The notes under the pieces: model-generated
Seen by the model: the letters and a program-made list of their open reading frames with translations, nothing else
What the model was told of the DNA's origin: nothing
Database searches by the model: none
Origin: Lineus longissimus
Taxonomy: Eukaryota > Nemertea > Pilidiophora > Heteronemertea > Lineidae
Reading direction: 5' to 3'
DNA length: 64,000 nt
Assembly (NCBI RefSeq): GCF_910592395.1
Contig: NC_088310.1
Span: 18,359,501 to 18,423,500, forward strand
Shown: positions 1 through 61,420 of the stretch, one piece after another
Layout of the letters: each line of letters opens with the position of its first letter
How positions within the stretch are numbered: the first letter of the stretch is position 1
Translations under genes and position numbers: made by a program

Positions 1-3000
1 ATGTTGTTGGAGCTGAGGACAGTACTTGTCCAATGAAGGCATCTCTCCTGTCCGATGATGGCACACCCAGGACATCCAGTAGGTTATTGGGGCTGCGGAT
101 AGTACTTGTCCAATGAGGTCACATCTCCAGTGGATAAGTCTCCGCCCACGAATGCATACCCAGAACCTCCAGCAGGTCATTGGGGCCGAGGACAGTGATT
201 GTCCAATGAAGGAACATCACCAGCATGTTATTGGAGACGACGACAGTACTTTTGTAATCAAGAGACATTCCCCGTGGTTTAGTCTCTGTCCACGAATACA
301 CACCCAGAACCTTCAGCAGGATATTGGGGCCGAGGACAGCAATTGTCGAATGAAGACACATCACCAGTTGGTCATTGGGGCCGAGGACAGTATATTTCCA
401 ATGAAGAGACATCCTCCGTCATTATCTGTTCAGTAAATGCACCCCCAGGACATCCAGCAGGTCATTGGAACCGAGGACAGTACTTATCTAATGAAGGCAC
501 ATATCTGTCTACTGATTACGATGGACAACAAGAACCTCAAGCAAGTTGTATGAGCTGAGGACAGTACTTGTCCAATGAAGGTATATCTCCTGTCCGATGA
601 TGGCACACCCAGGACATCCAGTAGGCTATTGGTGACGAGGACAGTACTTGTCCAATGAGGTCACATCTCCAGTTGACAAGTCTCCGTCCGCGAATGCATA
701 CCCAGAACCTCCAGCAGGTCATTGGGGCCGAGGACAGTAATTGTCCAATAAAGGCATGTCACCAGTAGAACTGTATCTGTCAAATGAATGCACACCCAGG
801 ACATCCAGCTGGTTATTGGAGACGAGGACAGTACTTTTCCAATGAAGAGACATCCCCCGTGGATCAGTCTCTTTCCATCAATGCACATCCAGAACCTCCA
901 GCAGATCATTTGGGCCGAGGACAGTCATTGTCGAATGAAGGCACATCACCAGCAAGTTATTTGAGACGAGGAGAGTACTTTTCCAATGGAGAGACATCCC
1001 CGTGGATCAGTCTCTGTCAACGAATGCATACCCAGAAGCTCCAGCAGGTCATTGGGGCCGAGGACAGTATTTGTCCAATGAAGGCACATCACCAGCATGT
1101 TATTGGAGACGACCACAGTACTTCTCCAATGAAGAGCCATCCCCCGTGGCTCAGTATCTCTTCTCTGAATGCACACCCAGGACCTCCAGCAGGTCATTGG
1201 AGCCGAGGACAGTACTCGTCCAATAAAGGCATATCACCAGTGGAACAGTATCTGCCATATGAATGCACACCCAGGACGTCCAGCAGATTATTGGAGACCT
1301 CCAGCAGGTCATTGGAGCCGAGGACAGTACTTATCTAATGAAGGCACATATCTGTCTACTGATTACAACGGACACCAAGAACCGCAAGTATGTTGTTGGA
1401 GCTGAGGACAGTACTTGTCCGATGAAGGCATATCTCCTGTCCGATGATGGCACACCCAGGACTTCCAGTCGGCTATTGGGGTCGAGGACAGTACGTGTCC
1501 AATGAGGTCACATCTCCAGCGGACAAGTCTCCGTCCACGAATGTATACCCAGAACCTCCAGCAGGTCATTGGGGCCGAGGACAGTAATTGTCCAATGAAG
1601 GCACATCACCAGCAGGTTATTGGCGACGACGACAGTACTTTTCTAATGAAGAGACATCCACCGTGGTTTAGTCTCTGTCCAGGAATGCACACCCACAACC
1701 TCCAGGAGGACATTTGGGCCGAGGACAGTAATTGTCGAATGAAGGCATATCACCAATAGGTTATTGGAGACGAGGACAGTACTTTTCCAATGAAGGCATA
1801 TCACCAGTGGAACAGTATATTTCAAATGAATGCACACCCAGGACCTCCAGCAGGTCATTGGGGCCGAGGACAGTACTTGTCCAATGAAGGCATATCGCCA
1901 GTGTGCATTCGTGGACAGAGACTGATCCATGGGGATGTCTCTTCATTTGTAAAGTAGTGTCCTCGTCTCCAATAACCTGCTGGTGATGTGCCTTCATTGG
2001 ACAAGTACTGTCCTCGGACCCATTGACCTGCTGGAGGACATGGGTGTGCATTCATTTTACAGATATGGTTCTACTGGCGATATGCCATCATTTGAAAATT
2101 ACTGTCCTCGGCTCAAATGACCTGCTGGAGGTTCTGGGTGTGCATTCGTGGACAGAGACTGATCCACGGGGGATGTCTCTTCCTTGGAAAAGGACTGTCT
2201 TCGGCTCCAATAACCTGCTGGACGTCCTGGGTGTGCATTCAGTGAAGAGATACTGATCCACGGAGGATGTCTCTTCATTGGAAAAGTACTGTCCTCATCT
2301 GCAATGACCTGCTGGTGATGTGCCTTCATTGAACAATTACTGTCCTCGGCCCCAATTACTTGCTGGTGGTTCTGGGTATGCACTCGTGGACACAGACATT
2401 TCCTCTGGAGATGTGACGTCATTAGACCAGTACTGTCCTCGGTCCCAACAACCTGCTGGAGGTACTTGGTGTGCATTCATTTGTCAGATACTCTTCATTC
2501 ATCATTGGAGACGAGGACAGTACTTTTCCAATGAAGACATCCTCCGTGGATCAGTATCTGTAAAATGAATGCACACCCAGGACCTCCAGCAGGTCATTTG
2601 AGCCGAGGCCAGTACTTGTCCAATGAAGGCATATCACCAGTTTAAGAGTATCTGTCAAATGAATGCACACCCAGGGCGTGCAGCAGGTTAATGGAGACGA
2701 CAACAGTACTTTTCCAATGAAGAGACATCCTCCGTAGATCAGTTACCGGTTCACAAAATGCACACGCAGGACCTCCAGCAGGTCATTGGAGCCGAGGACA
2801 GTACTTGTCCAATGAAGAGAGATCCTCCGTGGAACAGTATCGGTTCACTAAATGCACACACGGGACCTCCAGTAGGTCATTGAGGCGGAGGACAGTAATT
2901 GTCCAATGAAGGCATATCACAAGTGGAACAGTATCGGTTCACTGAATGCACACCCAGGACGTCCAGCAGGTCATTGGAGCCGAGGACAGTACTTGTCCAA

Positions 3001-3250
3001 TGAAGGCACATATCTGTCCACTGAATCCAATGGACACCCAGGACCTCCAGCAGGTCATTGGAGCCGAGGACAGTACTTGTCCAATGAAGGCACATATCTG
3101 TCCACTGAATGCAATGGACACCCAGGACCTCCAGCAGGTCATTGGAGCTGAGGACAGTACTTGTCCAATGAAGGCATATCTCCTGTTCGATGATTGCACG
3201 CCCAGGACATCCAGAAGGTTAATGGGGTTGTGGACAATACATGTACTTGA
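1..3250. repeat. Satellite array A1
   Basis: This is a tandem array with a higher-order period of about 144 bp, made of a ~51-bp and a ~93-bp subunit. Both carry the core ATTGG-GACGAGGACAGTA...TCCAATGAAG. Copies are diverged by several percent and unit lengths vary. Most of the array runs in one orientation, but about 1,901-2,495 is inverted relative to the rest. Many short reading frames are open on both strands because the subunit lengths are multiples of three and poor in stops; they are not credible genes. The array ends near 3,250 with the same unique sequence that follows array A3 at 40,145. Confidence 0.9.
1901..2495 (-). repeat. Inverted block inside satellite A1
   Basis: The satellite monomers switch strand here. 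Up to about 1,900 the array reads GTCCAATGAAGGCATATC; from GTGTGCATTCGTGGACAGAG it reads the reverse complement, and it flips back near 2,495. The left, head-to-head junction is the same one seen at about 18,600 and 55,096 in arrays A2 and A4. Confidence 0.8.
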
Positions 3251-5377
3251 TCTGAAGGCATGCATCACAACTTTGCATGATTTTCAATTCGAGTCTCATG
3301 CAGATGAATGTTTCCCGGACTTTTTTTCAGTTCACACCAATATTCATGTAGCTGTTGACTAATTAACTCACCAAATTGGTTGCAAGCTACTTAGCTTGCA
3401 ATTTGCATCAACTGAAAGTATATCAGACATAAGATCGCAGACAGCACCTAGGTCATTAAACATTTCTCGCCAATGCTCAGGCAGGTTTAAAAACCTCACC
3501 ATGTTATAACGAACACCGAGACGCACTTCCTCATATACATTCTAATGTGTATTTTTCTCCGATTTAAATATACAAATCAAGACAATTTAAAGATGGTAAC
3601 AAAGCCTTGTGTAGCCCACCTTGCCTTGTGTTCATACACATGCCTCCAAGAATTAATAAAGAGAAGACTTTATGAATTCTTGATGCCACTGACCCAATCA
3701 AATGACACGTACAATAATCCTCTACGGACTGGTCACTTCAAACCAGTTCAACTCCTGACACGTTTCCTGGGACAGGGAGTATGATGACCCCCTCATTAGT
3801 ATGATGAATCCCCTAATTACATCTAACACTTTCTGTAGCATCTAATGTCAAGCAATTTGAAGCTCACCGCGGCACTACTTAATTTAGCTTCGAAACTTTG
3901 ATGAAAAAGACTTCTCTGAAGCTTTTCCTAGACTGTTGGCCAATGTTGAAAGTGAGCTTGTATCAGAAATTCTGACGGTGATATCAAGGACAAAGCCCAC
4001 ATTTTGGTTCATGAAAGTCCAATAATGATATGATGTAAAATCAGCTACCCCAATGATTCTATTGCAGGGTCTTCCAACTTTTCCTCAACCCGGGACAGTT
4101 GCAGAAGGTCTCCAATGTTGTGACGACCCTTCGACATGCGACAAATATAACCAACTTTTGCTTAACTTCCACTCTGGGGCCAACGCGCCAACCACTGGGC
4201 CGAAAAGGAATTCCCTCATGGCCGGCGGGTTAAGCCGTGCCATATACCTGGGGGTACTATACAAAGGGAGACTTTAAGGCCAAAATAGACCCGTCATACT
4301 CATTAGCCAGGTGCACGGTGGTTAAGTGCAACTTGGACCAGCAGTCTTGCACCCCTGGCAGTTTCTTTGTACCCCCAGGATCAGCCTGGTGCCCCTTACA
4401 GACTGCTTGTAGTAGTTGGAAAGCCCTGCTACACAGGATAAGCTACCAGTCCCTCACGAAAAAAATTAGTCTGCAGTTCAAGCTACAAAGTCTGGAACGG
4501 TTTGCACAAAAGTGCTTGTCCTTTTTCATCGAAGTCAAAACCATGCGACAATTACATAAGAACACTTCATCTTGTGTAATAACTGACAACAAGAATACCA
4601 CCATACATGATTTGTGCATGTTTGAGGAAATCCATTCCCCGGCAGTTTCAGCACTCCCAGAATATTTCCCTTTCATTGTTTGTTAACACTTCAAACAAAC
4701 ACAATGTTTAGAAATTAGCACAGTCACGAGCCACTAATCTGCTAAGAACAAATAGTAACATTACGCTTGCATGCCTGAACTTTATTTACATGTATTCTGG
4801 AAAGTTTTAACTCAGATATTGTTATGGACAGAAATACAAACGTTGCTTATTTTAACCTTACAAATGCTCAAGGTCAAATGCTGGCTTGAAATATTCTTCA
4901 ATTTAATAGTATTTTGAAGACTTGCAGTAGCATGTAAACTCAGAACCCAAGCCGAAATAGAGGTCTTCAAAATTCCCAGCAATAAATTTATATCCAAACC
5001 ATACCCTCTGCCTTCCAGTCCTATCGATTGATGTCATGTTGACTGACAGGACGTGATAGATATTGCATTTCGATGTCAATCGCGTCACGGACTGAGCTTA
5101 CAAGTCAGTGACCGCGCAAAAAAACGCCCCAGCCACCTTTACCAAAGTTGGCAGTTCCAAGGTGTATAGACTCTTCAGAGTGTTTCAATTCTTAAAGTGT
5201 TATGAATTCATGAATCACACACCCTTCACTAAATAGATATATTACATTTCTGGTAAAATAGCGTTTTGTTCAGCTAGGAATTCAGTAGACTCTCCCAGGA
5301 CAGTCCATTGCATTATCCTAATTGGATATCCTTAGGATGAGGGACGAGGCCCGTCCACTGCCTCTGGAGTGTAAGAA
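3251..5377. other. Non-coding flank 3' of the ALPK1-like gene
   Basis: I see no convincing gene here. A 149-codon frame at 4,237-4,686 is present in the direct duplicate but broken by a stop in the inverted duplicate, and it resembles no family I know. The part 4,043-5,377 is repeated inverted at 34,572-35,890 and directly at 40,952-42,286. It should contain the 3' UTR of the minus-strand kinase gene; a minus-strand AATAAA lies at 4,781-4,786. Confidence 0.7.
4781..4786 (-). terminator. Candidate poly(A) signal of the ALPK1-like gene
   Basis: AATAAA on the minus strand (TTTATT on plus), about 590 bases after the stop codon of the kinase gene. Duplicates lie at 41,690-41,695 and, on the plus strand, at 35,147-35,152. 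Use is inferred. Confidence 0.4.
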
Positions 5378-8300
5378 TTAAGAGGCAAATTGAGGTCTCT
5401 TTATTCCTAGCGAGTAGCATATATCGTTACATGTCGGATGTTGCTCACTCCAAAAGTCGTCAACACCCTCTTTACCACGGTTACCAGTAACAAATACGGT
5501 CTTCAGAGGTTCTGAATTAATGGCAGGGTCTGTGAAAATGATGGTGCCTTTTTGGTCCCGGGGCAACCAACCCTGAAGGTCTGTCACCAGTATCCTGCCT
5601 TCGGACTGCTCCCATGTAAAGTGCATAAAGGCTAGGGACACGTCCACAAGTTCCTTAGTTAAATCTGGGTTGACATACTTGGAGTTGTTGGTCACTTTGA
5701 CAAAATCTGACCCCTCCACGAACGGCTCAACATTTAACAAATAAACTATGTCCTTGTGGTCATCCGACAAAAGTTGGATGTGCGCTGCAGGAACAAACTG
5801 GATCTTCCAGGCCTGATTGTCGTCCTTGAGCGCCTGGTTGAACAGGGCCACGAAATGGCGCGCTGTCATCTGGCAGACGACATCCTGGTAGTACAAATGC
5901 AGCTTCTTCCGCCTGGCATCTCGGTATCTCTTGCCAACGTATCTATCAAGACAAAGAACATCTGGTGAGTTAAACGACGCATCTAAAAATGGACACCGTA
6001 TCAGAGAGATATTTTCTAGCGCTTGCTGCAATTCGACCTCAGAGTAGATAGATTGTCTATTTCTGTGTCCGGATGTACCCTTTAATTTGTTACCTTGCTT
6101 TTGGTTCATCCTGATTAAGATACTGAAGTTTGATGACGTCACGCATGGCTCCCTTTGGACGAACGTCCAGCTTGTCATCGACGTAGACCAGGGTCGTCGA
6201 GCAAGTCCATGTATTGTGGGCAGCGTCGAATTTAAACACCCGGGCACCTGGGAAATACATGTGTAGATTCTTGAAATTACGGCCGGTCCCTGGAGGCGGA
6301 CACCGATGACTAGAGATGCCCCGGCGGCGTCCACCAGACTGCCAGTGGCACATGGACAACACAGACAGAAGTTTTCTTTCTATCTGTTTTATACACATAG
6401 GTTAATATTCAGTGCACGACACTTGAATTTGAATTTCAGTCAATCGTCAGTATGGAAATAATTTCCATTTTAAAACCTTTCTTTTAATGAAACAACTCTG
6501 AATTTCTTCTATATAAAAGGAAAAAAGGACGAGATTTCAGTTCAATAGCCTAAAAAGTATGTCTCAGCGGTCAGTTAACCCGTCGCAGTACCTGTGTATT
6601 TTTGTTTCAGTCAGAATCATTGGTGATAGCGTCTTCAGTGACAAAATTGACGTCATAACCTTTGCCGATACACGTACATGTACTTACTTATGCCATTGAG
6701 GAAATACTCAGAAGTTGGAATCATGATGTGCCAAGTAGATACTTACGATGAACACCCAACGGTATCTCGCCTGTCTTTAAGGCGTGACCTTGGCGGGAAT
6801 CAGTCATCTCGATATTAGCGGAAGGATTCATTGTCTGTCCAGGCAATGCAGAGAGGGTGCAGTCTACGAATGAGCTTATTGGGCTCACTGGATCAGGCAC
6901 GAGGAACGTCTGCGGGAGTTGTGTGGGTTTGTCTTCGAGGTTCATCGGTTGGACACTCTCAACGTACTCGTCAATTTCGACCCCTTGTTCGTGACTCGCG
7001 ATGGACGCATCCTCTGTCTTTGGATTCATCAAGCCTTGCGTTGATCCACTGTAACCTGTATCCTCAGATGAAGCATAAACACCAAAATCATCAGCAAGAG
7101 TAGCAGCTTCATGCGGCAATTCAAACTGTCCTCCGAGACTACCAGTCCAAGAAGCAGTTTCTACGACATTATTGGCGCTCGGAAGCCCCAGGCAATGCGA
7201 TGCGACAGGCGGGCGAACTACCGCAGGAGTGCCGCTCTCTTCATTCGGACCTCCGCCAGATTTGGTCATCTGCTGAAACTGACCTTCTCTATCTCCCACT
7301 TTCACTGCTATCCCTGTGTCTCGATACCTTGACGAGTCTGCTGTCTCTGGCTGCCGTCGTCCTGATGGTCGAGTGTCAGCCTCTGGGTCCATAAGAGTAG
7401 GTGCTACTGACAAACTCACTGAGATGGAAGTTGTCTTTTCCGAGAGATCAGCGACTGAAGTGTCTCCTTCTTGTTCACCATTCCCTGCAGTGGAGCCAAT
7501 AGCATGTCTGTTAGCTCTTGTATTGGAACGGGTGAGTCGAGCTCGAGTACCCGAGCGGTTGTGCTCGGTCACCATAGGAGTAGCAGCCGCTGGTTGTCGT
7601 TTGGATGGCTTGGTGTCAGCCTCTGGTTCCGTAAGTGTAGGTGCCAGGCTCCAAGAGATTGAACGAACACGTGTCGTTGCAGATTCTTCCATGGCCCTTT
7701 CGTTTTGATTGTCTTTCCTTGGAGTGGCAGCACCAGTAGCATGTCTCGTAACCCGGGTGCGGAAACGGGACAATGGCGCTCGACTGTTGGCTGTGTCCTC
7801 AGGATGGGACACCACCTGAGTGCCTATGTGGTTAGGGGTCGATGCCACAGATTCTCGGAGAGTCGGGTACCGGTATTCATAAGCTGGTAGGTTGAGAAAC
7901 TCATTAGTTTCAGGAGCACTGACAGTTTTTCGCGGTAGTTCCAGCAAGTCATGGACTTTATGGATTGCTTTGACAAAGTTCTCCTCGAGAGGAACAGCGT
8001 CAGTAGCGGCGCAGTGATGATCATAAATGACCATGCAGTTCTTTTCGATCTCAATAGCTTTCGAGATTGCTCCTGGGGTAGCCATCAGACGGTAGGCTAT
8101 GAAACATTGGTACACAGCGCATGTGAATTCATTCAGCTGCTCTCGACTCGTGAGTTTATTCAATGATAGGTGTCCCTTGAGGCTCATCTTGAGGTCGTTG
8201 AGAGCCTGAGTGATCTGCTTAAGCCGGTCTTCCTGAGGCAGTGTGATCACGAACATGAGCAACACCTCGCCAGCCCTTCGCTGGAAGAGAAATGGAATGA

Positions 8301-11032
8301 AATCAGCCTCAGAAAATGTGAGGGGCTAAAGCAATGAAAGGAAGTGAGGAAAAAACTTGTGACCAGTCAGGGTTGTCGCCAATTTGGGGAGATTCGCACT
8401 CACACCCACAGAATCGACTGTGCCCCAGATACCGAAGTCGTTTCCGCCATAACTCGATTTGCGAGTTGCCCCTAGATTTAGTTGCGTCGCATAAAGATTT
8501 AAGGGTAATACCTAGACTATTTAGCACTACTCGACCACCGGGATGTGCCCAAAGATGTGGTAGGCCTGCTGCCATAATTGTTCACACCAGAATGCAAAAC
8601 TGTTCGAATCACCAATTGATGGCTATACTAGCTAATAGTAGAATCAGAGTATTTCAATGAATTCATTTAAAGAAGACAAGCAGTCTCATGATTGTGACTA
8701 TGTCTTTTCAAGGCCGCCCGCTTACCGCATGCCTCGCGAAGAAAAATGGGTCGAATCTAGTCAGCCAGGCAGCCTGTCTGTTCGCAGCATAGGCCTCTTC
8801 AAGGGGATGGTTATAGCGGCACGCATACTTCAGCAGCATCTGCTTGAACTCTGAATGAGAGATGTTTCTTAGGACATCTGAGAGGATGCCCAACGAGGAG
8901 CTTATTTCTTTTTGGTCGGGCTTGGGTAGGCTGTTGTATCTCCGGATAGACTCGAGGATAAGGTCTGCAGCTTCCAACCAAAGACCTATATACAAGAACA
9001 TGAGGGACAGAAAAAATAAACAAGCACTCACTTGATATCAATTAACGAAGTGTTTTTGTGTAATCTAGTCGATTTCCGCAATCCGATTCGACGAAAGAGC
9101 GCTCAGCTTAGCCATCTGTATATACTTGAACACATGTACTTGACTTTAAATTTGAGGATACTGTTGCAGTAGCTTGCACGTTCACACTTGCACTTTTGAA
9201 AAGGCCTGCTGTCATTTCCAGTTCTGTTCAAAATTACATTAGAACAGCTTATTCTCAGGTGCAAATTCGCAGCTAAGTCACACCTCTGGCCAGTATCCCG
9301 CAAAAGAAGCCACGGACCAGGTAGATCTTCGTATCTCTGGCCAGTATCCCGCCAGATAGGCCATGAACGGGTAGGACTTCGATCAAATCTCTGGCCAGTA
9401 TCTCGACAGCGAGAAGCCATGGACCGGGTAGGACTTGCGTGTATGTCTTTGGTCCTCAGCCAAAATAATGATAGTATAAGTAATAGCTTACCGAGATTAT
9501 GTCTGATGACTCCTTTCACCTGGACGCATGTTGCGTGAACAATGTTGTACTGGCTCTCCTCCTTATAGCGCCATTGCTCTGGAAGGACAAATTGAGTACA
9601 ATGACCGTCTTGACCCTTAAGTTTTGGATCCACTCCGCCAACCCGGACTCCGTGACACAAAAGGGAAGGGAGTTCAAAGATGTAGTACCTCTGATGGTTC
9701 AGAATGACATGGACCTACAGTCCAATACGGAGTTCTCCTGAAGCAGATCTTTCAGTTTTTTGGGGTGCACCATAGCTCCTTACTTTATACAAAGGTTAGA
9801 TAGTACAAAACCAAGATGAAACGTCTGCAGATATAACAGGCATATCAGAGAAGACGCAAAAGACCTGGATGTGCCCTGATGAAAGTTGGTCTCCAACACC
9901 GCCATCTGTGGACGCATAAGCTGGAAAGTAGAGTTTTGATAGACCCGGGACATTCCATTTCGTCATCCTACTCATGAAGTACGAGGCCGGTCCACTGCGT
10001 CCGGAGTGTAAGTTTTAAAGGGGTGACCAACCTTTATGTCCCTTCTCTGAGAGAATGAAATCGAGCGTCTTGTCGGCATCTTGGAGAGAGCCCCCATCTT
10101 TGAGGAACCTTGCCTTCCTTAGGTAGACCTGTGGCGCGATGGCCGTGGTGGGCGCCTGCTGTTTGATGTCGTCCACCTTGTCGAGGATGTATTTGGAGTT
10201 ACCATGCAAATACATCAACCGATCAAGCAGGAGGGCGACTGACGCGGCCGTCTCGAAGGCCTTCTCTGAATAGGCATGTTCAAGACATTCCTGGAACAAA
10301 AAAACAACAACATTAGAAATATTAATTTCAATCACGCCATAGTACGGCGTTCGAGTCAAACTTGATAGACACGTTATTTCAGCAACCATTTCGATACATG
10401 TACATGTACCGGGACATATCACTTGTTGCAGTTAAAAAGTTCGAATTTCCTGTGTCACCTAGACTCCATTGCAGTCCATTTCGTCATCCCTATCGTTTTT
10501 CCTCGTTGGGCGACAGGGCGCGCGGCGACTATAGGACGAGGTCGGTCCTCTGCGTCCGGGGTATGGGAGTCACCGGGGTTCAAAGAAGTTGACCCGCCTG
10601 ACTGCTGCATGCCGATTTTGGCGTTCTTAGTCAGCCTTGTCTTAGTGAAGGACTGAAAAAAACACCGATGGGCATCGAATAATGGTGACGCCAATGAGAT
10701 TCGCACTGCCTCTCTAATCAAGACTGCATTCTGCAATTCATGCTAGATTTGTACAACTCGGCGATTGAGGGGGCATGCGAAACAACCTTCAGAACATCCT
10801 CCTCTGTCATATCAGGATAGACTGAATTCTTGGACTGGATGAGATCATTGATGTTGACGATCTCCTTCTTGTTGTCCGGCTCGAACTGCCACTCCTCGAA
10901 GACGAATGGCCAAGATTGGTCCTCAGCCTCGCGAACTAACTGCTGGAGTTTCGGCGACAGCGCGCTGAACCATTCCTTCAATGTCTTGTGTTGCGAGGAG
11001 GAATTCTTCAGTTGCACCCCAGCTCCTTTCAT
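5378..11032 (-). CDS. ALPK1-like: ALPK1-like alpha-protein kinase, copy 1
   Basis: This is a predicted cytosolic atypical kinase. Vertebrate ALPK1 binds bacterial ADP-heptose through its helical N-terminal domain and phosphorylates TIFA. Exons, in transcription order: 11,032-10,787 (3' end least certain), 10,290-10,032, 9,578-9,492, 8,985-8,726, 8,280-6,747, 6,247-6,094, 5,942-5,378. All phases join to 1,034 residues (human ALPK1 about 1,240). Residues 1-390 match the ALPK1 sensor domain: WPFVFEEWQF, APQVYLRKARF, SSSLGILSDVL. A low-complexity linker follows to about 795. The alpha-kinase domain has VIKLQ with the candidate ATP lysine, RYVGKRY, QMTARHF, VTDLQGWLP, FTDPAINS, GNRGKEGV and the zinc-binding HPTCNDIC. 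The first ATG follows an acceptor at 11,052; an exon ending at 11,142 may be 5' UTR. The TIFA-like gene lies upstream in the same orientation. Confidence 0.9.
7372..7629 (-). other. Two EADT motifs in an 80-residue duplicated linker module of the kinase
   Basis: The linker exon carries APTLTEPEADTKPS (motif at 7,629-7,612) and APTLMDPEADTRPS (7,389-7,372), exactly 80 codons apart. Each is preceded by similar Arg/Thr-rich and Ser-rich text (RHATG/RHAIG; SISWSLAPTL/SVSLSVAPTL), so a module of about 240 bp was duplicated. The motif resembles the phospho-threonine site of TIFA. Function is inferred. Confidence 0.75.
9284..9441. repeat. Intronic minisatellite, three units
   Basis: About three imperfect copies of a 50-60-bp unit sharing CTCTGGCCAGTATC and GGTAGGACTT, inside an intron of the ALPK1-like gene. 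The duplicate is at 46,196-46,353. Confidence 0.75.
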
Positions 11033-11141
11033 TTCAATTCGTGGACGGGAACTGAAATGAGTGATTTGAAAAAACCGTCACAGAGTTGAAGCTGAGACGA
11101 CTGAATCATTAAAGGTATAGATGTCTGGAGATGCAACATAC

Positions 11142-11290
11142 CGGTCTCCGCCCGAGCGGATGGTGTTTTGAGCCAGCAGCCCGGAAAACGTATTGTCCCG
11201 GGAATGTCGTCAAGCCAGTGTCATAAAGACGGCCGTCTTGAATGTAGGCTTGGCACAAGTTGAGACTTGCTGGACAGACCGGGGCAGTGG
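11142..11290 (-). other. Possible 5' exon of the ALPK1-like gene
   Basis: A good donor (GAGACCG followed by GTATGTT) ends an open stretch at 11,142. Joining it to the acceptor at 11,051 puts the downstream ATG out of frame with this exon, so it would be untranslated leader if used. The upstream limit was not determined. It is conserved in the duplicate (about 48,057-48,205). Confidence 0.35.
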
Positions 11291-11640
11291 GACTGATCAT
11301 GTGCTCGTGTTGCAGTTATACATGCATATTTGAAGTGGACAAATGATTCATGACGAATGAACTCGGTGCATGTCTGATAGCGGTAGAACATGCAGACATA
11401 ATTGACCCTGATGGTGATATTGATAACCTATTAATACTGACTATCGGAACCGACCGCATTCGATTTCCGGAAAAGCAAGCAGAAATAATTTGCCCGTCAC
11501 GAACGTCACTTTCGGACATCGGTGTTGAGTATGATCAAGAAGATTATCAAGAGCTCCATGACACTTTTGTTGAAGAACTCTCGTGAGATCGATACACATG
11601 GTGTAAAAGAAATTACTCCGACACAGAAAGTGGCATAAAA

Positions 11641-11646
11641 TTTATT
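11641..11646 (-). terminator. Candidate poly(A) signal of the TIFA-like gene
   Basis: Minus-strand AATAAA about 310 bases after the TIFA-like stop codon and before the first kinase exon. It supports two separate transcripts rather than a kinase-adaptor fusion. In the second unit it is at 48,657-48,662. Confidence 0.45.
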
Positions 11647-11957
11647 CCATTTTTACATGTTTTAACAGAGAGCAAAAGCATATCCTTAAACAATTTTGAT
11701 ACATTCATAGAGTGAATCACCTCAACAGTTCTTCTAATGCGTCTTGTGAGACTCTGGATTAAATCTTTGGATTGCGAAGCAAATGAACGACACTTTAACA
11801 CTCCTACGACACGTCGTTCTCTACAATAAACTCAGCAAGGCGCCGTCGCGACTCTCCACTGAGCTGATGGAACCTTATGAGAGATATCATCAAAGCAAGA
11901 CAGTCGCGACGGATCTGATAAACTTTACATTACCACTTCATGACAGAGAGACAATGC

Positions 11958-12938
11958 TTATTGTTGGAAGGCATCATCACCAAGACAACTTCTGGGTGCC
12001 TCTTGTGACACATTGCGTGAGAGGGAACACTGCAAGGGCGCATTCAGCTGTGAACCTGGTGTATTCATTGCGAAGTCTAAGTTCGAGTCAGCTTTAAATG
12101 TTACCTCGAATATGTAACTACTCCATCTATTTGACGTCTCCACGCACAACAAAAAGTCCATGCTTTGCCCTTCACCGTACTTAGAATCAAGATCACGAAT
12201 ACGCAATCGTGATACCTGGGGAAGTCGTCTGCTTTCATCCAGTCCCAAAGTTTCTTCATTTAGGAAAACCTTCTTAAGCCTGCTCAGGTTTTTAAAAACG
12301 AAGTACCACTGGTCCGATTTGTGGACAAGTGTCAATGAAAATTGTCTTTGTGAAATCGTCGCGTCATTAAGTTTTACCTGGACACCCCCTGAAGGTGCAA
12401 GTCTGCCAAACACCATTACCCCGTCACCTATCACTTTATCCTTCGGGTAGAATTCTTTCAATCGTTTTGGCGTGAGAGGCGAGTAGCTGAAAACCACCTT
12501 GTTCTCGTCCGTCCCGCCACCCAGTTGAACTTGTGTTTCAGCCTCCGGATTCTCTTCGACGACAATACCACTATCCGCCACGGAATTGTCCTTTTCTAAT
12601 CCACTGCTGGGAACACCTAACTTAACCGAGACATCTCTCGAAGAAAAATCATTTCGCGGTTTTGCCCTTTTTTCGTTGTCACATCCCGCATTAGCCGTAT
12701 TCGCTACATCTACATTAACTTTCGTGTCGGCATCGTGGTCTACTTCTATGATATTATGTCTCCCCGCATCTTCAATTGATGCGGCTCGCCGGGGTTCCTC
12801 TTCTTTCGTGTCCGCATCGGGGTGTACTTCTATGATATTATGTCTCCCAGCACCTTCGGCTGATACGGCTCGCCGGGGTTCCTCTTCTTTTGTTTCGGCC
12901 TCTGGGTCCTCCTCTACAATGTCACGCCCCGAATCCAT
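11958..12938 (-). CDS. TIFA-like: TIFA-like FHA-domain adaptor, copy 1
   Basis: A predicted 326-residue cytosolic adaptor. The FHA domain (about 170-275) matches TIFA in order: VFGRL, then ISQRQFSL (TIFA also has QFSL), then FKNLS, then LNEETLGLDESRRLP. TIFA is the substrate of ALPK1: its N-terminal phospho-threonine is bound by FHA domains of other TIFA molecules, giving oligomers that recruit TRAF6. Here the N-terminus has a 28-residue repeat (PEAETKEEEPRRA..., PDADTKEEEPRRA...) and four [DE]A[DE]T sites, T16, T44, T72 and T135. No P-x-E-x-x-(acidic/aromatic) TRAF6 motif is visible. The start is the ATG at 12,938: an acceptor lies just upstream at about 12,965 and the exon before it (13,425-13,471) has an in-frame stop. 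The kinase gene follows on the same strand. Confidence 0.85.
   Translation of the reverse strand: MDSGRDIVEEDPEAETKEEEPRRAVSAEGAGRHNIIEVHPDADTKEEEPRRAASIEDAGRHNIIEVDHDADTKVNVDVANTANAGCDNEKRAKPRNDFSSRDVSVKLGVPSSGLEKDNSVADSGIVVEENPEAETQVQLGGGTDENKVVFSYSPLTPKRLKEFYPKDKVIGDGVMVFGRLAPSGGVQVKLNDATISQRQFSLTLVHKSDQWYFVFKNLSRLKKVFLNEETLGLDESRRLPQVSRLRIRDLDSKYGEGQSMDFLLCVETSNRWSSYIFEVTFKADSNLDFAMNTPGSQLNAPLQCSLSRNVSQEAPRSCLGDDAFQQ
12715..12914 (-). repeat. 84-bp coding repeat with DADT-type motifs
   Basis: The segment for residues 12-40 is repeated in tandem with a 28-codon period, and a third unit begins at residue 69 and decays. Each unit opens with the P/H-[DE]-A-[DE]-T motif. Confidence 0.8.
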
Positions 12939-13424
12939 CCTAATATTCTCAACTTCGAAACTATCTATAAGAGACAAGACCACTAATGAATATTCATAGG
13001 TTGGTGTCCTATCAATTAGACGAGTGCATGTTTTTAACTCTCAAGTACATATTTGGAGAGGCATTGAAAAATTATTTGTTGTGGCAAGTCTACAGATATA
13101 AAGAAATTATTTGATGAAAAAATTAATTTCGAATTTTGCTAATTTGGTAATAGGGGGCGTGTTTTGAGATTTTTCTGCCAGTTAGTGGAAATATCAATGT
13201 CTGTCTAATTTGTCGATTATCAAAAAATTTCCGTGGTCAACTACCAGTTATTTTTCACCATTTACTTGCCCGACTGTCCGGAATATCAAAATTTCAGATT
13301 CACAGCCCCACGCAGCATTTGATGCGTCGCGGTCAAACATTGACAATTTAACTGCTAAAAGGCTTAAAAAATCAATGGTGGTTTTGTCTCATAAAGCGAT
13401 ATAACCAGATTGTTGTTTACTCAC

Positions 13425-13471
13425 CATGTACTCGACTTTAGACTGCAAATGGCGCTCGGTAGAATCACGAC
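13425..13471 (-). other. Likely 5' UTR exon of the TIFA-like gene
   Basis: A 47-base exon bounded by a strong acceptor (AAATTTTTAG) and a strong donor (CATG followed by GTGAGT). In the main frame it carries a TAA stop. It ends in ATG, which after splicing would open a 17-codon upstream frame that overlaps the main start. Conserved in the second unit near 49,92x-49,97x. Confidence 0.5.
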
Positions 13472-14802
13472 CTAAAAATTTAACAGAGACACATATTAAT
13501 CAAGATAGTAATCAGAGTTTTGATAAAACGCAGACTTGAATCTATAACCGGCCCATGTAAACTTTAAACTAGTTGTACACCTGTGCAAGTATTTATTCCA
13601 GAAAACTGTGTTTTTATGTCTTGTGTATCTCACACTACATTTTCCAGGTCACAGAACTTGGTGCGGTTAATTGTCAAACGGAACTTTTTTCATGCTTCAT
13701 GAACACTAGAAATGTGCTTAGAAATGAAGTTTCGTTTTAGAATTTGTGGCACCAACAGAAAACCATGTTTCTTGGGTAAATTGGGGGTGCTCTTTCCAAA
13801 AATGAGGTTTTCTGGAGCTTTTTTTTAGGTTGTGAAATATGTCTGTGGAGGAAGTGATAAAATGTCAGACAAATGGAGTAGATTAATGCAGGCCGGTGCA
13901 GAAGTAGAAAGTGTCTCCCTGGAAAAAGTGTCCGGTCCTACTTTATTCTGACGCATTATGGTCCATGGTTCTCTTGATGCCATGACTGTCAACACCTCAG
14001 ATATTAAGGACATTTCAAACTTCTATACCGGCAATTATTAGAATAAATGACGAAATCGGAGTGTATCGATAATACATGTACCAATAAACTCTCCGTTCCA
14101 CTGTTCAGATATCATTCTTCGGAGTGGTCAGTATATTAGTGTCACGCAGACACTTACTGACGGTACACTCTGGACGCCGTGGATCAGCGTCGTCTCTCCC
14201 CTGGGAAGACTATGAAAGGACTGTCGTCACGAATCTTACCGACGGGCTGTCAATTTGCCCCGCGGATTGTTTACAAATTCGCGAGGGGGGGGGGGGGGGG
14301 GGGCAGAAATAGAAGCTTTCAAAGACAACACTTACCTCTTGTTTTCACCGATTTAGAAAGACAAGAGAATTGTTTTCAAGCGCGGGTAGAATGAAATCAA
14401 TGGCGTCCAGTTTGACAGGTCTCGACTCATCGCGTGTCACCATCGCCGACAATACGTAACTGGAATGGTTGGTAATTGATATTTATAGAACGGGGCATTT
14501 CTTTTTCACTTTTCTCAACTTAGGATTGGTCGAATTCGAAATATAATCTTGGGTTTTCCGAGGCCACTTGAATATGTTATACTTTATATTCTTCTCAATA
14601 ACGAAAGCGCAACTACTTTCAATACAAATTTCAATACAAACTGTACATACACATGACATATACAAGGATTATAAGATTTAAGTTCTGTTAAGAAGTCGAA
14701 GTACTCTTTTCAAATTCGACTACACAAATTCTTTGGATTTCAAGTCATCGTATCATAAACTGTCTCCTAATCTTTGACAGATAACATGGCTTGTGCGTTC
14801 TT
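13472..14802. other. Intergenic region upstream of the TIFA-like gene
   Basis: No gene recognised. Minus-strand donor-like sites (CCGTCA followed by GTAAGTGTC near 14,155; AAGAG followed by GTAAGTG near 14,335) suggest further untranslated first exons and a promoter in this stretch. It contains a 19-G run at 14,285-14,303, which is 11 G in the second unit. Confidence 0.45.
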
Positions 14803-15066
14803 CCCGTTGATAATAATAATGAGTCTTTTATATAGCGCAATTCCGTGACACTAAGTTCTCGCTCAAATCGCTTTAGGTTATCTTATTATTACCCCGGTCT
14901 CCACAGAAATCAATCAGGGGTTTCAAGGAGCAACCAGAAGGTGCTCACTTGAACTCGACCAGTAGGGGAACTAAGCAGTGACTCGGCCGGGAGTCGAAAC
15001 CACGACCTCCTGATCATGAGACCGACTCTCTTCCACTGCGCTACCGCTGCCCCGTGCCCCGTTGAT
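14803..15066 (-). mobile_element. tRNA-derived SINE with target-site duplication
   Basis: On the minus strand the element starts at about 15,057 with a tRNA-like head: A box TAGCGCAGTGG and B box GGTTTCGACTCC. A body follows, and the tail is GCGCTATATAAAAG then (ATT)n at 14,812. It is flanked by the 9-bp direct repeat CCCGTTGAT (14,803-14,811 and 15,058-15,066). This is the layout of RNA polymerase III SINEs with tRNA heads. The same insertion is at 51,299-51,562. Confidence 0.85.
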
Positions 15067-15319
15067 GACATCTACCATAGGCCCAAATGTGTTCAGTTCA
15101 TGCTGTGCCAGCTATGGTGAGTCTGTATGATACAGGCAGAGGTTGGCTGATGTACAATGTGCTCGATGGCTGTGTAGGCTGCATCCAGTGCAGAGGAACA
15201 ATCTGCACACCCGGGATCGCGAAGCTCAAGTGACTGGAAGACGGCGTTCCTCCATTAAAGATACAGACTCTATTTCCAGGTAACTGAAGCCAATTGTGGG
15301 CATCCCCAGGATAGCCAGC

Positions 15320-18300
15320 TGGAGACGAGAACATCCAGGTGCTCTAGCCAGATTCGAGGACATGACACTAGTCCGACGAAACGCACACCAAGGACCTCTA
15401 GTGGGGTTACTTGGCCCGAGAACGGTACACATCTTCAGTAGATCAGTATCTATCGGTCCACTAAATACACAACCAGACCTCAAGCAGGTTGTTGGGGCCG
15501 AGGACAGTAAGAATCCAATGAAGGCACATCACCAGCAGGTCATTGGAGTCAGTCTCTGTCCACAAATACACACCCAGAACCACCAGCAGGTGATTGGGGC
15601 AGAGGACAGTAATTGTCCAATGAAGGCACATCACCAACAGGTTATTGGAGACGAGGACAATACTTTTGCAAAGAAGAGATCCCCCGTGGATCAGTCTCTG
15701 TCCACGAATGCACAGCGAGAACCTCCAGCAAGTGATTGGGGCCGAGGACAGTAATTGTCCAATGAAGGCACATCACCAGCAGGTAATTGGAGACGAGGAC
15801 AGTCCTTTCCCAATGAAGAGACATCCTCCGTGGATCAAAATCTGTTCACTGAATGCACACCCAGAACCTCCAGCAGGTCATTGGGGCCGAGGACAGTAAT
15901 TGTCCAATGAAGGCACATCACCAGCAGTTCAATGGAGACGAGGACAGTCCTTTCCCAATGAAGAGACATCCTCCGTGGATCAAAATCTGTTCACTGAATG
16001 CACACCCAGAACCTCCAGCAGGTCATTGGGGCCGAGGACAGTAATTGTCCACTGAAGGCACATATCTGTCCACTGAATCCAATGGACACCCAGAATCTCA
16101 AGCATGTTGTTGGAGCTGAGGACGGTAATTGTCTAATGAGGTCGCATCTCCAGAGGAAAAGTCTGTGTCCACGAATGCTTACCCAGAACCACCAGCAGGT
16201 GAATGGGGCCGAGGACAGTACATTTCCAATGAAGAAACATCCTCCGTCGATCAATATCTCTTCAATGAATGCACACACAGGACCTCCAGCAGGTCATTGG
16301 AGCCCATGACAGTACTTGTCCAATGAAGGCATATCACCAGTGGAACAGTACCTGTCAAATGAATGCACACCCAGGACGTCCAGCAGGTTATTGGAGACGA
16401 GGACAGTCCTTTTTCAATGAAGAGACATCTTCGTGGATCAGTATCTGTTCACTGAATGCACACAAAGGACATCCAGTAGGTCATTGTGGCCAAGGACAGT
16501 ACTTGTCCAATGAAGGCATATCACCAGTGGAAGAGTATATGTCAAATGAATACACAACCAGGACCTCCAGCAGGTCATTGGAGCCGAGGACAGTACTTGT
16601 CTAATGAAGACACATATCTGTCTACTGATTCCAATGGACACCCAGAAACTCCAGTATGTTGTTGAAGCTGAGGACAGTACTTGTCCGATGAAGGCATATC
16701 TCCTGTCCGATGATGGCACACCAAGGACATCCAGTAGGTTATTGGTGCCGAGGACAGTACTTGTCCAATGAAGAGACATCCCCGTGGATCAGTCTCTGTC
16801 CACGAATGCACACCCAGAACCTCCAGCAGGTCATTGGGGCCGAGGACAGTAATTGTCCACTTAAGGCACATCAACAACAGGTTATTAGAGACGAGGACAC
16901 GACTTGTCCAATGAAGAGACATCCTCCGTGGATCAGTCTCTGTACACGAATGCACACCCAGAACCTCTATCAGGTCATTGGAGCCGAGGCCAGTACTTGT
17001 CCAATGAAGGCATATCACCAGTGGAACAGTATCTTTCAAATGAATGCACACCCAGGACGTCCAGCAGGTTATTGGAGACGAGGACAGTCCTTTTCCAAGG
17101 AAGAGACATCCTCCGTGGATCAGTATCTGTCCACTGAATGCACAGCCAGGACCTCCAGCAGGTCATTGGGGCCGAGGCCAGTACTTGTCCAATGAATGCA
17201 TATCACCAATGGAAGAGTTTCTGTGAAATGAATGCACACCAAGGACCTCCAGCAGGTTGTTGGGGGCCGAGGACAGTACTTGTCTAATGAGGTCACATCT
17301 CCAGACGAAAAGTCTGTGTCCACGAATGCCTAGAACCACCAGCAAGTGATTTGGGCCGAGGACAGTAATTGTTCAATGAAGGCACATCACCAGCAGGATT
17401 TTTGAGACGAGGACAGTACTTTTCCAATGAAGATACATCCCCCGGGGATCAGTCTCTGTCCACAAATGCACGCCCAGAACCTCCAGCAGGTCATTGGGGC
17501 TGAGGACAGTAATTGTCCAATGAAGGCACATCACCTGCAGGGTATTGGAGACGAGGGCAGTACCTTTCCAATGAAGAGAGATTCTCCGTGGATCAGTCTC
17601 TGTCCACGAATACACACCCAGAACCTCAAGCAGGTCATTTGGGCCGAGAACAGTACATTTCCAATGAAGAGACATCCCCGTCGATCATTATCCGTTCAGT
17701 AAATGCACCCCCAGGACCTCCAGCAGGTCATTGGAACCGAGGACAGTACTTATCTAATGAAGGCAAATATCTGTCTACTGATTACAATGGACACCAAGAA
17801 CTTCAAGCATGTTGTTGGAGCTGAGAAAAGTACTTGGCCAATGAAGGCATATCTCCTGTCCGATGATGGCACACCCAGGACATCCAGTAGGTTATTGGGG
17901 CCGAGGACAGTACTTGTCCATTGAGGTCACATCTCCAGTGGATAAGTCTCCGTCCACGAATGCATACCCAGAACCTCCAGTAGGTCATTGGGGCCGAGGA
18001 CAGTACTTGTCCAACGAAGGCATATCACCAGTAGAACAGTATCTGTCAAATGAATGCACACCTAGGACGTCCAGCAGGTTATTGGAGACGAGGACAGTCC
18101 TTTTCCAATGAAGAGACATCCCCCGGGAATCAGTCAGTCAATGATGCACACCCAGAACCTCCAGCAGGACATTTGGGCCGAGGACAGTAATTGTCGAGTG
18201 AAGGAACATCAACAACAGGTTATTGGAGACGAGGACAGTACTTTTCCAATGAAGAGACATCCCCGTGGATCAGTATCTCTCCACTGAAAGCACAGCCAGA

Positions 18301-18951
18301 ACTTCCAGCAGGTCATTGGGGCCAAGGACAGTAATTGTCCAATGAAGGCACATCAACAACAGGTTATTAGGGACGAGGACACTACTTTTCCAATGAAGAG
18401 ACATCCCCCGTCGATCAGTATCTCTTCACTGAATGCACACCAAGAATCTCCAGCAGGTCATTGGAGCCGTGGCCAGTACTTGTCCAATGAAGGCATATCA
18501 CCAGTGGAGCAGTATCTGTTAAGTGAATGCACACCCAGGACCTCCAGCAGGTCATTGGGGCCGAGGACAGTACTTGTCCAATGAAGGCATATCACCAGTG
18601 TGCATTCGTGGACAGAGACTGATCCACGGGGGGTGTCTCTTCATTTGTAAAGTAGTGTCCTCGTCTCCAATAACCTGCTGGTGATATGCCATCTTTGGAA
18701 AATTACTGTCCTCGGCTCAAATGACCTGCTGGAGGTTCTGGGTGTGCATTCGTGGACAGAGACTGATCCACGGGGATGTCTCTTCATTGGAAAAGTACTT
18801 TCCTCGTCTCCAACAACCTGCTGGGGAGGTGCCTTCATTGGACAATTACTGTCCTCAGCCCCAATGACCTGCTGAAGGTACTGGGTATGCATTCGTGGAC
18901 GGAGACTTGTCCACTTGAGATTTGACCTCATTAGACAAGTTTTGTCCTTAG
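15320..18951. repeat. Satellite array A2
   Basis: Same family as A1, period about 144-146 bp. The first ~200 bases are degenerate units, then regular ones. Orientation flips at about 18,600 and stays inverted until the BEL element 1 LTR begins at 18,952. It lies about 2.4 kb beyond the TIFA-like gene, so the gene pair is bracketed by satellite on both sides. Confidence 0.9.
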
Positions 18952-19142
18952 TGGATAGGAGTTAATAGTTTCCCAGGAGGATGTGACTGTCTTCGGCTCA
19001 CATCCGGCTGGTGCGGACTTGGTCCGCGGGGGTCGAATGGCGCGCTGAAGAAGAAGGACGGAGATCGAATTTTGTAGCAAGGAATTCCTGAATAAAGCGG
19101 AAGAACTGTTATGTTTTATATCGTCTAAGAGTCTAATAACCA
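18952..19142 (+). repeat. 5' LTR of BEL element 1, copy 1
   Basis: 191 bp, TG...CA ends, contains AATAAAGCGG. It differs from its 3' partner at two positions (CAGGAGG against CAGTAGG, GCAAGGAATT against GCAAAGAATT). Confidence 0.9.
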
Positions 19143-19144
19143 AG

Positions 19145-19160
19145 TGGTAGCAGAGCGTAG
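19145..19160 (+). other. Primer-binding site, BEL element 1
   Basis: TGGTAGCAGAGCGTAG starts two bases after the LTR. A leading TGG complements a tRNA CCA end; the tRNA is not identified. Confidence 0.6.
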
Positions 19161-19205
19161 TTATCAATATAGTATAGAGACTTTAAAGCATAGAGTTCCG
19201 AAAAA

Positions 19206-21712
19206 ATGAGTAAAGATCGGGGTACCCTAAAGATCGAGCCGACCTCCCGCGCCCTGGCCGCTCGCAGGACGCGCCATCAGAACAAGACATGCAAGTTGCA
19301 CGTGTTGATGTACACGATGCACGTGGCGATGTACACGATGTACGTAGCGAAGGCACGCATACAGAAGACGGTGAACAGGATGAGTATAACCTCAATGGAT
19401 TGCATGCTGATGATGATGATGAGCGTGAGAAATGTTCTGAGAAAGAGGTGAGAGAATGGAAAGCACAGAAAGCTGTAGATAAAGCAGGTTTTACAAAGAC
19501 AAGAAGAAAACTGGCGTCGTTGCTGGACGATGTGTTGGAAGAGTTAGGCCTAGACACCGATAGGGATACATCCTTGAGTGAAGATGCCCGTAATCAAATA
19601 GAAGCAGCTGCCAAGAAGGTTGATGATGCTCAAGAGAGGGCGATGAGAACCATGTCGAAGCTGACCTACGCGTATTTAGACAATGGAAAACTTGAAGATT
19701 TCGACAAAATCTCTGATGAGATGGAGAAGATTGCGCAAGAGTATGACGACATAAGCAAGAAACTCGAGGAGTTTTATGTATCAACGAAGAAAAAGCGTGT
19801 TGAGGAAACGCCAGTAGTAACCAGCAGTCCAAGAAGGCCGCCCCCTAGTGTTACCACTGCCAGTGGTACCAGTGACACTATCACCAGTCGTGGTACTACC
19901 ACTACTAGCAGCAGTAGTACCAGCCCAAGCTCAAGACCAGTTGCTGCAGCGGTCACGACCAGCAGTTCCCGTAGAGTCTCATCCGGAAGTTCCAGTTCTC
20001 AGGCCGTTGAGTTTGATCCTACAAGGCATTTAACCCGCGTTACTATCCCCAAGTTTAGTGGTGATAAGAGAAACTACTCAGCATGGAAGGCTGCCTTCAC
20101 TAGTTGCGTCGATGAAACCACTATCACTGCAGAGTACAAGCTGTTGAGACTTAGAGAATGCCTTACTGGTGAAGCTCTGAAAGTTGTTGATGGGTTGGGG
20201 TATTCAGCGTCTGCATATGAAGTTGCTAAGGATCGCCTGGAGAGAAAATACGGAGGCCAGAGGAGGCAGCTTATCCTGAGACTGGATGAGTTAGAGAAGT
20301 TCAAGCAAGTCCGTGATGGGAATGCAAAGGATTTAGAGAAATTGGCAGAACTATTAGATGTCATCACAGTTAATTTGAAGGATGCGCACCAGGAATCTGA
20401 ATTGGGCAGTGGCAGTTTGTTTCTGTCAATACAGCGGAAACTGAGTGAGCTTCTCCTTGCACGCTACCACAGATGGGCCTATGATAAAGCAAAAGAGAAA
20501 ACTGTGATGTCCCTTCGAGAATTTGTAAATGAAGAAACAGAGTTTCAAGTCAACGCTATGGAAGCCATCAGTGGTGTGAGGGATTTTCCCAAGAAAGACC
20601 CAAGAAAAGATAGGAGCTTTGTCACGTCACAAAGTAGCACAGACCGTCAATCACAGTCACACTCCGGAGCCATGGGAAAATACACCAGATCATGCAATGT
20701 ATGCGGTTCAGAGCATGGAGCATGGGAATGTGACAGCTTTAAGGCGATGTCAGTGGACCTGCGGTGGAAAACAGCCAAAGAAAAGAAACTTTGCTACAGA
20801 TGTCTTAGCGGTAATGGTCACAGAGCAGAAAAGTGCCCAAGGACACGTCAATGCAAGATAGATGGCTGCAAACAGACACACCACCGGTTGCTGCATGGAA
20901 AAGCGAAGAGAGCTGAGAGTCGTCGACCCATGGAAGGGAGTGGTAACTACCAAGACTCAGATGAGAGCACAATGGCAACAGTGACACTGGCTGCAAAGAA
21001 CTGGAGTGAAATCGCGCTGAGAACCGTTCCAGTCATAATAAAGCATGGTGGAAAAAGAATAAAGACTAACGCCTTGCTAGATGATGCGAGTACATCGACC
21101 TACATAGATGCAAACTTAGCTGCAGAACTCGGAGTGCAAGGGAAAATTGAACAAACCACAGTTAACGTCCTAAATGGAAAGCTGAAGACATTCACCACCA
21201 TGCCAGTTGAAGTGGGAATAGAAAGTTTGAATCGACGAGTAGATATGAAGATTTGGGCAAAGACAGTGGATAAAGTCACGGGTGATTTAAAAGCAACAGA
21301 TTGGTCTTTGAAGCAGGATCAATATAGCCATTTGAAAGATATCCGGTTTCCAAAGATTGGTAAGAGAACCTCAGTGGATCTCCTGATAGGTGCAGATTAC
21401 AGTGAGCTACATCAAAGCATTCGAGACGTCATTGGTCGACCTGGTGAACCAACAGCGAGAGAGACAAGACTGGGATGGACGTGTATCGGTCCGGTAGGGA
21501 CTCCCTCGGGCCAAAAGAGGGAGGCAACCAACATAGCTTACAGCTTCTTCACCAAGGAGTCGCCATTGCTGCATGAAATCAATGATAACCTGAGAGCATT
21601 TTGGGAGATAGAGAGCATCAGCAAAGTGAATGAAGGACAAACCCCCTTGAATGAGAGTGATCGGAAAGTGCTGCAGAATGCCAGATCGTCAGTCAAGATA
21701 GTAGAGGACTGA
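19206..21712 (+). pseudogene. BEL element 1 gag-protease, broken (copy 1)
   Basis: Gag and aspartic protease of a BEL/Pao element, which make the particle core and process the polyprotein. Visible parts: an acidic N-terminus, a Ser/Thr-rich stretch, VTIPKFSGDKRNYSAWK, zinc knuckles starting CNVCGSEHGAWEC and CYRCLSGNGHRAEKC, and a protease region with LLDDASTSTYI. Compared with the copy at 55,702, a 17-bp insertion next to a repeated AAAGATC breaks the start, leaving an open frame from 19,289. A TGA at 21,710-21,712 ends the frame where the other copy reads on. Confidence 0.85.
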
Positions 21713-24700: not shown

Positions 24701-24920
24701 GTTGCGTCAGCGCCACAAGTGGAGAGATGTCAAGAAGGATTTAGAAGTAGGAGACGTTGTACTGGTGGCAGATCCTGGATCAGTGAGAGGAGATTGGCCA
24801 ATGGGACGAGTAACAGAAGTGTTTACCGGCAGAGATGGTCATCGTCGAGTGGTCAAAGTCCAGGTTGGCGAGAAGACTATGATAAGGCCAATCGTCAGGT
24901 TGTGCCCCCTGCGGTGCTGA
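21713..24920 (+). pseudogene. BEL element 1 RT-RNase H-integrase, broken (copy 1)
   Basis: The pol part continues at 21,713-21,979 in the gag frame, then shifts by -1 into 21,916-24,462. Visible are the RT active site YMDD (near 22,345), RNase H text TFGDASKDAYG, the integrase zinc module with KCAACERKKA, and the core with VDYAGPF and SDNGTNF. A 7-bp deletion near 24,405 shifts the frame just after HFGGIHESLV, and the C-terminal tail stays open in another frame at 24,507-24,920. The -1 shift between VVR and DKSTTK is shared with copy 2; the 7-bp deletion is not. Confidence 0.85.
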
Positions 24921-24934
24921 CATGTTTGCTTGCT

Positions 24935-25125
24935 GTCATTTTATTGGTGCGTGGTGGCCAGGCCACGCTTGCTGTTGTTTATTGGTGCATGGTGCCCAGT
25001 CCATGCTTGCTGTCGTTATTGGTGCGTGGTGCCCAAGCCATGCTGGTCGCAGATCGTTCGTGGTGCATGGTGCCCAAGCCATGCTGGTCGCAGATCGTTC
25101 GTGCATGGTGCCCAAGCCATGTTAA
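24935..25125 (+). repeat. Short tandem repeat in the BEL element 1 3' region
   Basis: About five imperfect units containing GGTGCATGGTGCCCAAGCCATG, some with GGTCGCAGATCGTTCG between them. Duplicate at about 61,421-61,611. Confidence 0.75.
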
Positions 25126-27381: not shown

Positions 27382-27472
27382 CACTAAGTCCTTGACTTTA
27401 CATATTAGATACGTTGGCAAGAGCTACCAAGATGCCGAGCGGAGGAAGCTGCATTTGTACTACCAGGATGTC

Positions 27473-61406: not shown

Positions 61407-61420
61407 CATGTTTGCTTGCT

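Follow-up and report, generated by a model that had tools for sequence, protein, structure and literature searches.

The closest described systems to the locus reported here are the alpha-kinase ALPK1 and the FHA-domain adaptor TIFA of vertebrates. Neither protein is placed in invertebrate lineages in the available portion of PMC12457700, and the accessible text of PMC11573728 assigns ALPK1 homologues to vertebrates only and heptose-biosynthesis enzymes also to protostomes, and proposes that vertebrates acquired the receptor once heptose synthesis had been lost in deuterostomes, the enzymes persisting in some protostomes; an excerpt of PMC11461863 summarises the same evolutionary analysis. No description of an invertebrate ALPK1 or TIFA was found by title or abstract among the literature matches listed, most subscription literature lying outside this scope. 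Here we describe a stretch of 64,000 nucleotides (the window) from the heteronemertean Lineus longissimus (Nemertea; C3:18359501-18423500 of the 391-Mb assembly), which probably encodes, as judged from sequence homology, a protostome sensor-adaptor module of the ALPK1-TIFA type whose two genes are physically linked. The automatic naming at NCBI already calls the Lineus kinase ALPK1-like.

The window contains two tandem units, labelled D and E. Kinase and FHA genes of unit D lie on the same (minus) strand with the FHA gene upstream, and 925 bp separate the FHA stop codon from the kinase ATG. An original prediction, made from the sequence alone, had placed both open reading frames (ORFs) on one strand about 0.9 kb apart, and the measurement confirms it. 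The features of unit D, in window positions, are the following.

5378..11051, minus strand: ALPK1 kinase gene, 7 exons, 1034 amino acids; sensor domain at residues 20-394, kinase domain at residues 785-1034
11051-10787 (ATG 11032), 10290-10032, 9578-9492, 8985-8726, 8280-6747, 6247-6094 and 5942-5378, minus strand: exons of the kinase gene
5930..5932, minus strand: codon of Lys851 in RYVGK, aligned with human K1067 (alignment of the unit D kinase)
7372..7614, minus strand: two PEADT motifs in the kinase linker, threonines 507 and 587
11958..12938, minus strand: FHA (TIFA-like) adaptor ORF, 326 amino acids, single exon from the ATG; FHA core at about residues 148-284
12534..12893, minus strand: four TIFA-Thr9-like motifs, [DE]A[DE]T, in the FHA protein, threonines at residues 16, 44, 72 and 135

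The ORF with the kinase exon (5378-6334, minus strand) matches the Pfam family Alpha_kinase with an E-value of 7.2e-34. A seven-exon model of the gene has GT-AG borders and matching phase at all six introns and no internal stop, and its product is letter for letter the L. longissimus record P0002, named "alpha-protein kinase 1-like" by NCBI. Read backwards from the first kinase ATG, the frame stays open as far as the splice acceptor in this model, and for this reason an FHA-kinase fusion transcript was considered as a possibility. A search of all PDB sequences pairs residues 20-394 with the ligand-binding domain of ALPK1 (5z2c, E 5.6e-39) and residues 785-1030 with its kinase domain (9j4p, E 2.9e-46), whereas other alpha-kinases, with which the fold is shared, match far more weakly (eEF2K, E 2.8e-11; myosin heavy chain kinase A, E 7.6e-10). 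The original prediction had named grouping with eEF2K or ALPK2/3 as its alternative, and the PDB search separates the kinase clearly from eEF2K; ALPK2 and ALPK3 are absent from the PDB matches listed; among the alpha-kinases in that list the kinase domain is closest to ALPK1, and an ALPK1-type sensor domain is present. The Lineus genome contains at least ten alpha-kinase matches, at least eight of them on C3 in the cluster region described below and at least two on C1, where a separate eEF2K-like locus is found (C1:1244800-1245467; the exon tested matches eEF2K best, E 2.5e-34). Searches of a collection of 5.8 billion proteins with the kinase sequence recovered six matches, three from the contig of the window and three from fish, and the sensor region retrieved two Lineus proteins only. 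Since these searches need exact shared words, and that with the sensor region missed the fish too, absence from other invertebrates cannot be concluded from them. By domain homology the window kinase is a member of the ALPK1 family, and chance is excluded as the source of the match. Like vertebrate ALPK1 it joins an N-terminal sensor to a C-terminal alpha-kinase domain, both strongly matched, and keeps the positions of human R150 and K1067; it differs in belonging to a protostome, in occurring in five linked copies, in the residues at the positions of human T237 and S277 (see below), and in a linker with two PEADT motifs.

Identity between the Lineus sensor domain and that of human ALPK1 amounts to 105 of 368 positions. 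Nine positions were compared, seven of them presumed ligand contacts; eight of the nine are identical to human, against 85 of 255 positions across the region (p 0.0008), and the Arg, Asp and Lys at presumed contact positions are unchanged in all five Lineus paralogues. The remaining two, R150 and T237, are backed by the part of PMC11614533 available, which describes R150 as critical for ADP-heptose binding in human ALPK1; its position is occupied by Arg in five of the five paralogues. The same source gives K1067 a catalytic role in human ALPK1, and by alignment K851 is the predicted ATP-site lysine of the Lineus kinase.

The FHA protein is more remote from its presumed counterpart. In single-sequence searches the unit D protein alone has no match in Pfam or, by phmmer, in PDB, and it is recognised only as a family profile. 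One relative was found in the protein collection (P0001, 299 amino acids, 68% identical), and both proteins start at the same MDSG. A two-row profile has seven matches in PDB, six of them TIFA (best E 0.002), and a six-row profile built from P0001, a distant paralogue and the unit copies with open frames has 23, led by six TIFA chains (E 1.6e-4 to 1.7e-3) and followed by luciferase (E 0.065). These E-values are modest, and no other FHA protein is among the PDB matches listed for either profile; the family profile matches TIFA first, and grouping with a non-TIFA FHA family, the outcome set against the original prediction, is not what was obtained. Three of the six family members reach Pfam FHA, with a best E of 0.0022, and one scored 18.7 bits against a curated cut-off of 20.7. 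In the alignment with TIFA, 23 of 79 positions are identical, and TIFA G50, R51, S66, Q69, K88 and N89 are kept, as is the SxxQ motif. According to the accessible text of PMC10865109, S33, K48, G50, R51, S66 and N89 are critical for binding of phosphorylated Thr9 by the FHA domain. AlphaFold2 models built from two-row alignments have mean predicted local distance difference test (pLDDT) scores of 31.0 and 45.4; a Foldseek search with the second of these yielded 639 matches at E <=10, of which none reached 0.001 and the best 50 included no FHA protein. Given such low scores and no significant match, structure is evidence neither way. Vertebrate TIFA and the Lineus protein have in common these FHA residues and an EDADT-like acceptor motif before the FHA domain, and differ in that the open copies of the Lineus cluster are 243-326 amino acids long, mostly with two to four motif copies and a long N-terminal tail, and in that the gene adjoins its kinase.

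TIFA records in PDB carry EDADT, with the Thr at position 9. All four [DE]A[DE]T sites of the unit D protein precede the FHA domain and are candidate acceptors; 20,000 shuffles of the protein averaged 0.028 motifs, and no shuffle reached three. Three motifs occur in FHA A (plus one EAYT), one in B (plus one EAYT), three each in C and P0001, and two, with one EANT, in the distant paralogue. The motif also occurs, as PEADT, in the kinase linker, twice in A, C, D and E and once in B, and two or more in kinase D are expected by chance in 0.4% of shuffles (P 0.0038). It is absent, in its strict form, from all three fish ALPK1 sequences compared. The five-residue strings DPEAD, PEADT and EADTK of kinase D are common to FHA proteins C and P0001, and with FHA A, B, D or the distant paralogue this kinase has no five-residue string in common. 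Ligand-dependent autophosphorylation of human ALPK1, at sites still to be identified, is reported in the part of PMC10113258 available, and we infer from the sequence that the linker motifs may be connected with it. Paralogue B (C3:18305171-18310539), from which one linker PEADT is missing, is also the only one with Ala at the position of T237.

Genome searches revealed that the pair belongs to a cluster of five full kinase genes at C3:18.2809-18.4075 Mb, each preceded on its own strand by an FHA gene; the five FHA-kinase units lie within about 128 kb. The module was multiplied into these five units by tandem and inverted duplication; three of them (A, B and C) lie outside the window, which contains the following further parts of the cluster.

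2869..27472, no strand assigned: tandem duplication copy 1, containing unit D
39771..63956, no strand assigned: tandem duplication copy 2, containing unit E
42287..47966, minus strand: second ALPK1 kinase gene, unit E; 1034 amino acids, frame open, splice sites conserved
48974..49434, minus strand: FHA gene remnant, unit E, with an internal deletion and a frameshift
34063..34571, plus strand: further (third) copy of the last kinase exon, partial and inverted; shares its reading frame with a BEL/Pao retroelement ORF

The two tandem copies are 98.3-99.1% identical in three long pieces. All five kinase frames are open, with GT-AG at each intron (1034 amino acids in A, D and E, 970 in B, which equals P0003, and 1020 in C), and four of the five FHA frames are open (A 326 amino acids, B 243, C 298, D 326). 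The genes of a pair are about 1 kb apart in A, D and E, 7 kb in B and 12 kb in C, the wider spacing of the latter two being due to interruption of the same sequence by about 5 and 11 kb. The original prediction of duplication as a unit holds in that there are five units, and falls short in that B and C are split by insertions and the second unit of the window is without a working adaptor frame. Synonymous divergence is 0.7% between D and E and 2.2-4.9% between the other unit pairs, and the cluster is young. Between kinase pairs, the ratio of nonsynonymous to synonymous rates (dN/dS) is 0.52-1.14 for the whole protein, 0.25-0.83 for the kinase domain (D-E, with one change, left out), 0.81-1.99 for the linker and 0.29-1.92 for the sensor domain, in which changes are few.

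Several observations weigh against the reading of this locus as an ALPK1-TIFA type module, and most of them concern the adaptor. A C-terminal TRAF6-type motif, for which we assume the pattern P.E..[FYWHDE], is absent from six of six FHA proteins scanned, unlike vertebrate TIFA, and the protein is for this reason filed as TIFA-like and not as TIFA. The protein-collection search, an exact-shared-word method, returned no record for the FHA protein of the window itself, and one of the five FHA genes, that of unit E, is broken (526 bp gone, with six other bases in place, a frameshift, and a stop after 44 residues). FHA pairs give no sign of purifying selection: nonsynonymous changes per site equal or exceed synonymous ones in five of six pairs, and in C-D 32 nonsynonymous changes stand against 3 synonymous ones (one-sided p 0.03; 0.09 and 0.18 in two other pairs; uncorrected, three of the six pairs tested). 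This pattern points to an adaptor evolving under relaxed or diversifying conditions, and constraint among the cluster copies lends the reading no support. TIFA K48 is not conserved; in the available part of PMC10865109, K48R and S33A still rescued signalling and the N89A mutant still condensed. The missing motif and the lack of purifying selection, together with the low identity to TIFA and single-sequence searches that find no TIFA, favour an alternative in which the kinase is a true ALPK1 orthologue with some other substrate and the FHA gene an unrelated, lineage-specific one, linked by chance and hitch-hiking in the duplications; nor are the five linkages five independent events, since all units stem from one ancestral arrangement. 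However, TIFA is the sole FHA protein among the profile matches listed, SxxQ and the residues of the phosphothreonine pocket are kept, and the Thr9-like motif is repeated in both the FHA protein and the kinase linker, and we consider such a chance association improbable.

On the sensor side, A, C, D and E have Ser, and B has Ala, at the gatekeeper position of human T237; at that of human S277 all five paralogues have Glu. The part of PMC11614533 available describes S277 as strongly conserved in vertebrates, T237 as hydrogen-bonded to the ligand, and T237A human ALPK1 as admitting UDP-mannose, ADP-ribose and GDP-mannose. Along with the wide range of sensor-domain dN/dS, few as the changes are, the gatekeeper residues argue for a module of the same type with a different ligand, in which the paralogues would recognise different nucleotide sugars, or metabolites of the animal itself, and the expansion would have diversified their specificity. 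Set against this are the Arg, Asp and Lys common to all five copies at presumed contact positions, and the hydroxyl that Ser retains, and we hold a change of ligand to be possible, if rather doubtful. The number of units could be questioned as well, since the divergence of D from E, 0.7% at synonymous sites and 1-2% overall, is at an allele-like level, and for these two alone a mis-join is conceivable in which both haplotypes of a single unit were placed in a row. Units A, B and C, by contrast, show 2.2-4.9% synonymous divergence from D/E and have different orientations and surroundings, and the contig is 29 Mb long; we regard an assembly artefact as unlikely, and, given the divergence and distinct contexts of A, B and C, the unit has been multiplied whichever way D/E turns out.

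A distant FHA paralogue, 37% identical in the matched part, occurs at C3:5671010, and genome searches gave no alpha-kinase match near it. An exon encoding a death effector domain (DED; Pfam E 6.1e-19) lies just upstream, and the phase-1 splice sites of the two match.

L038 34-424 and 1096-1947 (C3, about 5.6695-5.6715 Mb): predicted DED-FHA gene, from splice-site matching

The predicted two-exon product, whose splice is itself a prediction, has a DED-motifs-FHA order, 414 amino acids, three Thr9-like motifs and an FHA domain of TIFA-like kind. In the stretches scanned near the five-unit cluster, no DED exon was found below E 3.3. As for other outputs, the TRAF6-type pattern that we assume has two matches in kinase D, both within the sensor domain, and TKEE, a short candidate motif, occurs twice in FHA A, B and D, once in P0001, and is absent from C and the distant paralogue. 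TKEE fits the TRAF2 consensus quoted in the accessible part of PMC12457700.

As far as the comparisons reached, the sequences support the linkage of an ALPK1-type kinase to a TIFA-type FHA protein. A mechanism can be proposed for this module, with homology and residue conservation in support of each step. A microbial ligand resembling nucleoside diphosphate (NDP)-heptose would bind the N-terminal nucleotide-sugar-binding sensor and activate the alpha-kinase domain, which would phosphorylate the D/E-A-D/E-T threonines in the N-terminal tail of the FHA protein encoded next to it. The phosphothreonines would then be bound by FHA domains of further adaptor molecules, giving TIFAsome-like oligomers, and the output would probably be ubiquitin or death-fold signalling. 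Most copies carry several acceptor sites per molecule, which would raise the multivalency of the assembly above that in vertebrates. By analogy, we infer that ADP-heptose may be sensed and TRAF6/NF-kB signalling may be the output at this locus. An extension of the ALPK1-TIFA reading, which we put forward tentatively and at less than even chances, is that it represents an old, at least bilaterian, immune module kept as a linked, expanding pair. In this extension the TIFA-type acceptor motifs of the linker would let the kinase, once activated, autophosphorylate and recruit its own FHA adaptor directly, nucleating the assembly; the second FHA protein, in which the same phospho-motif code is joined to a DED, would give a second output, different outputs plugging into one sensor.

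Other parts of the window are repetitive. Between the gene units, at 600-3250, 15560-18920, 35900-39920 and 52040-55410, lie minisatellite arrays whose related repeats measure about 94, 144 and 187 bp; these arrays give spurious open frames. A BEL-type element occurs in two copies, one per duplicated unit (19289-24920 and 55702-61406, plus strand), the second with longer ORFs, and both are about 35% similar to the pol of a chimeric BEL/Pao-kinase element. In the latter, a BEL/Pao gag-pol ORF (29877-34571, plus strand) continues, without a change of frame, into the last kinase exon (Peptidase_A17, 1e-47; Alpha_kinase, 3.9e-27); among at least eight last-exon matches on C3, it is the one with an open frame of 1565 amino acids. 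Partial kinase copies comprising exon 6 and part or all of exon 7 occur at 26070-27529 and 62556-64000 (plus strand), the second running off the window, and another copy of the last kinase exon lies at C3:18441153.

A protostome ALPK1 with a TIFA-like partner contradicts the vertebrate-only distribution of the two proteins and opens the question of how heptose sensing arose to testing. A testable rule for adaptor recruitment is suggested by the several acceptor sites of the FHA protein and by the presence of such a motif in the kinase itself, and an immune alarm of the ALPK1-TIFA type may be much older than thought.

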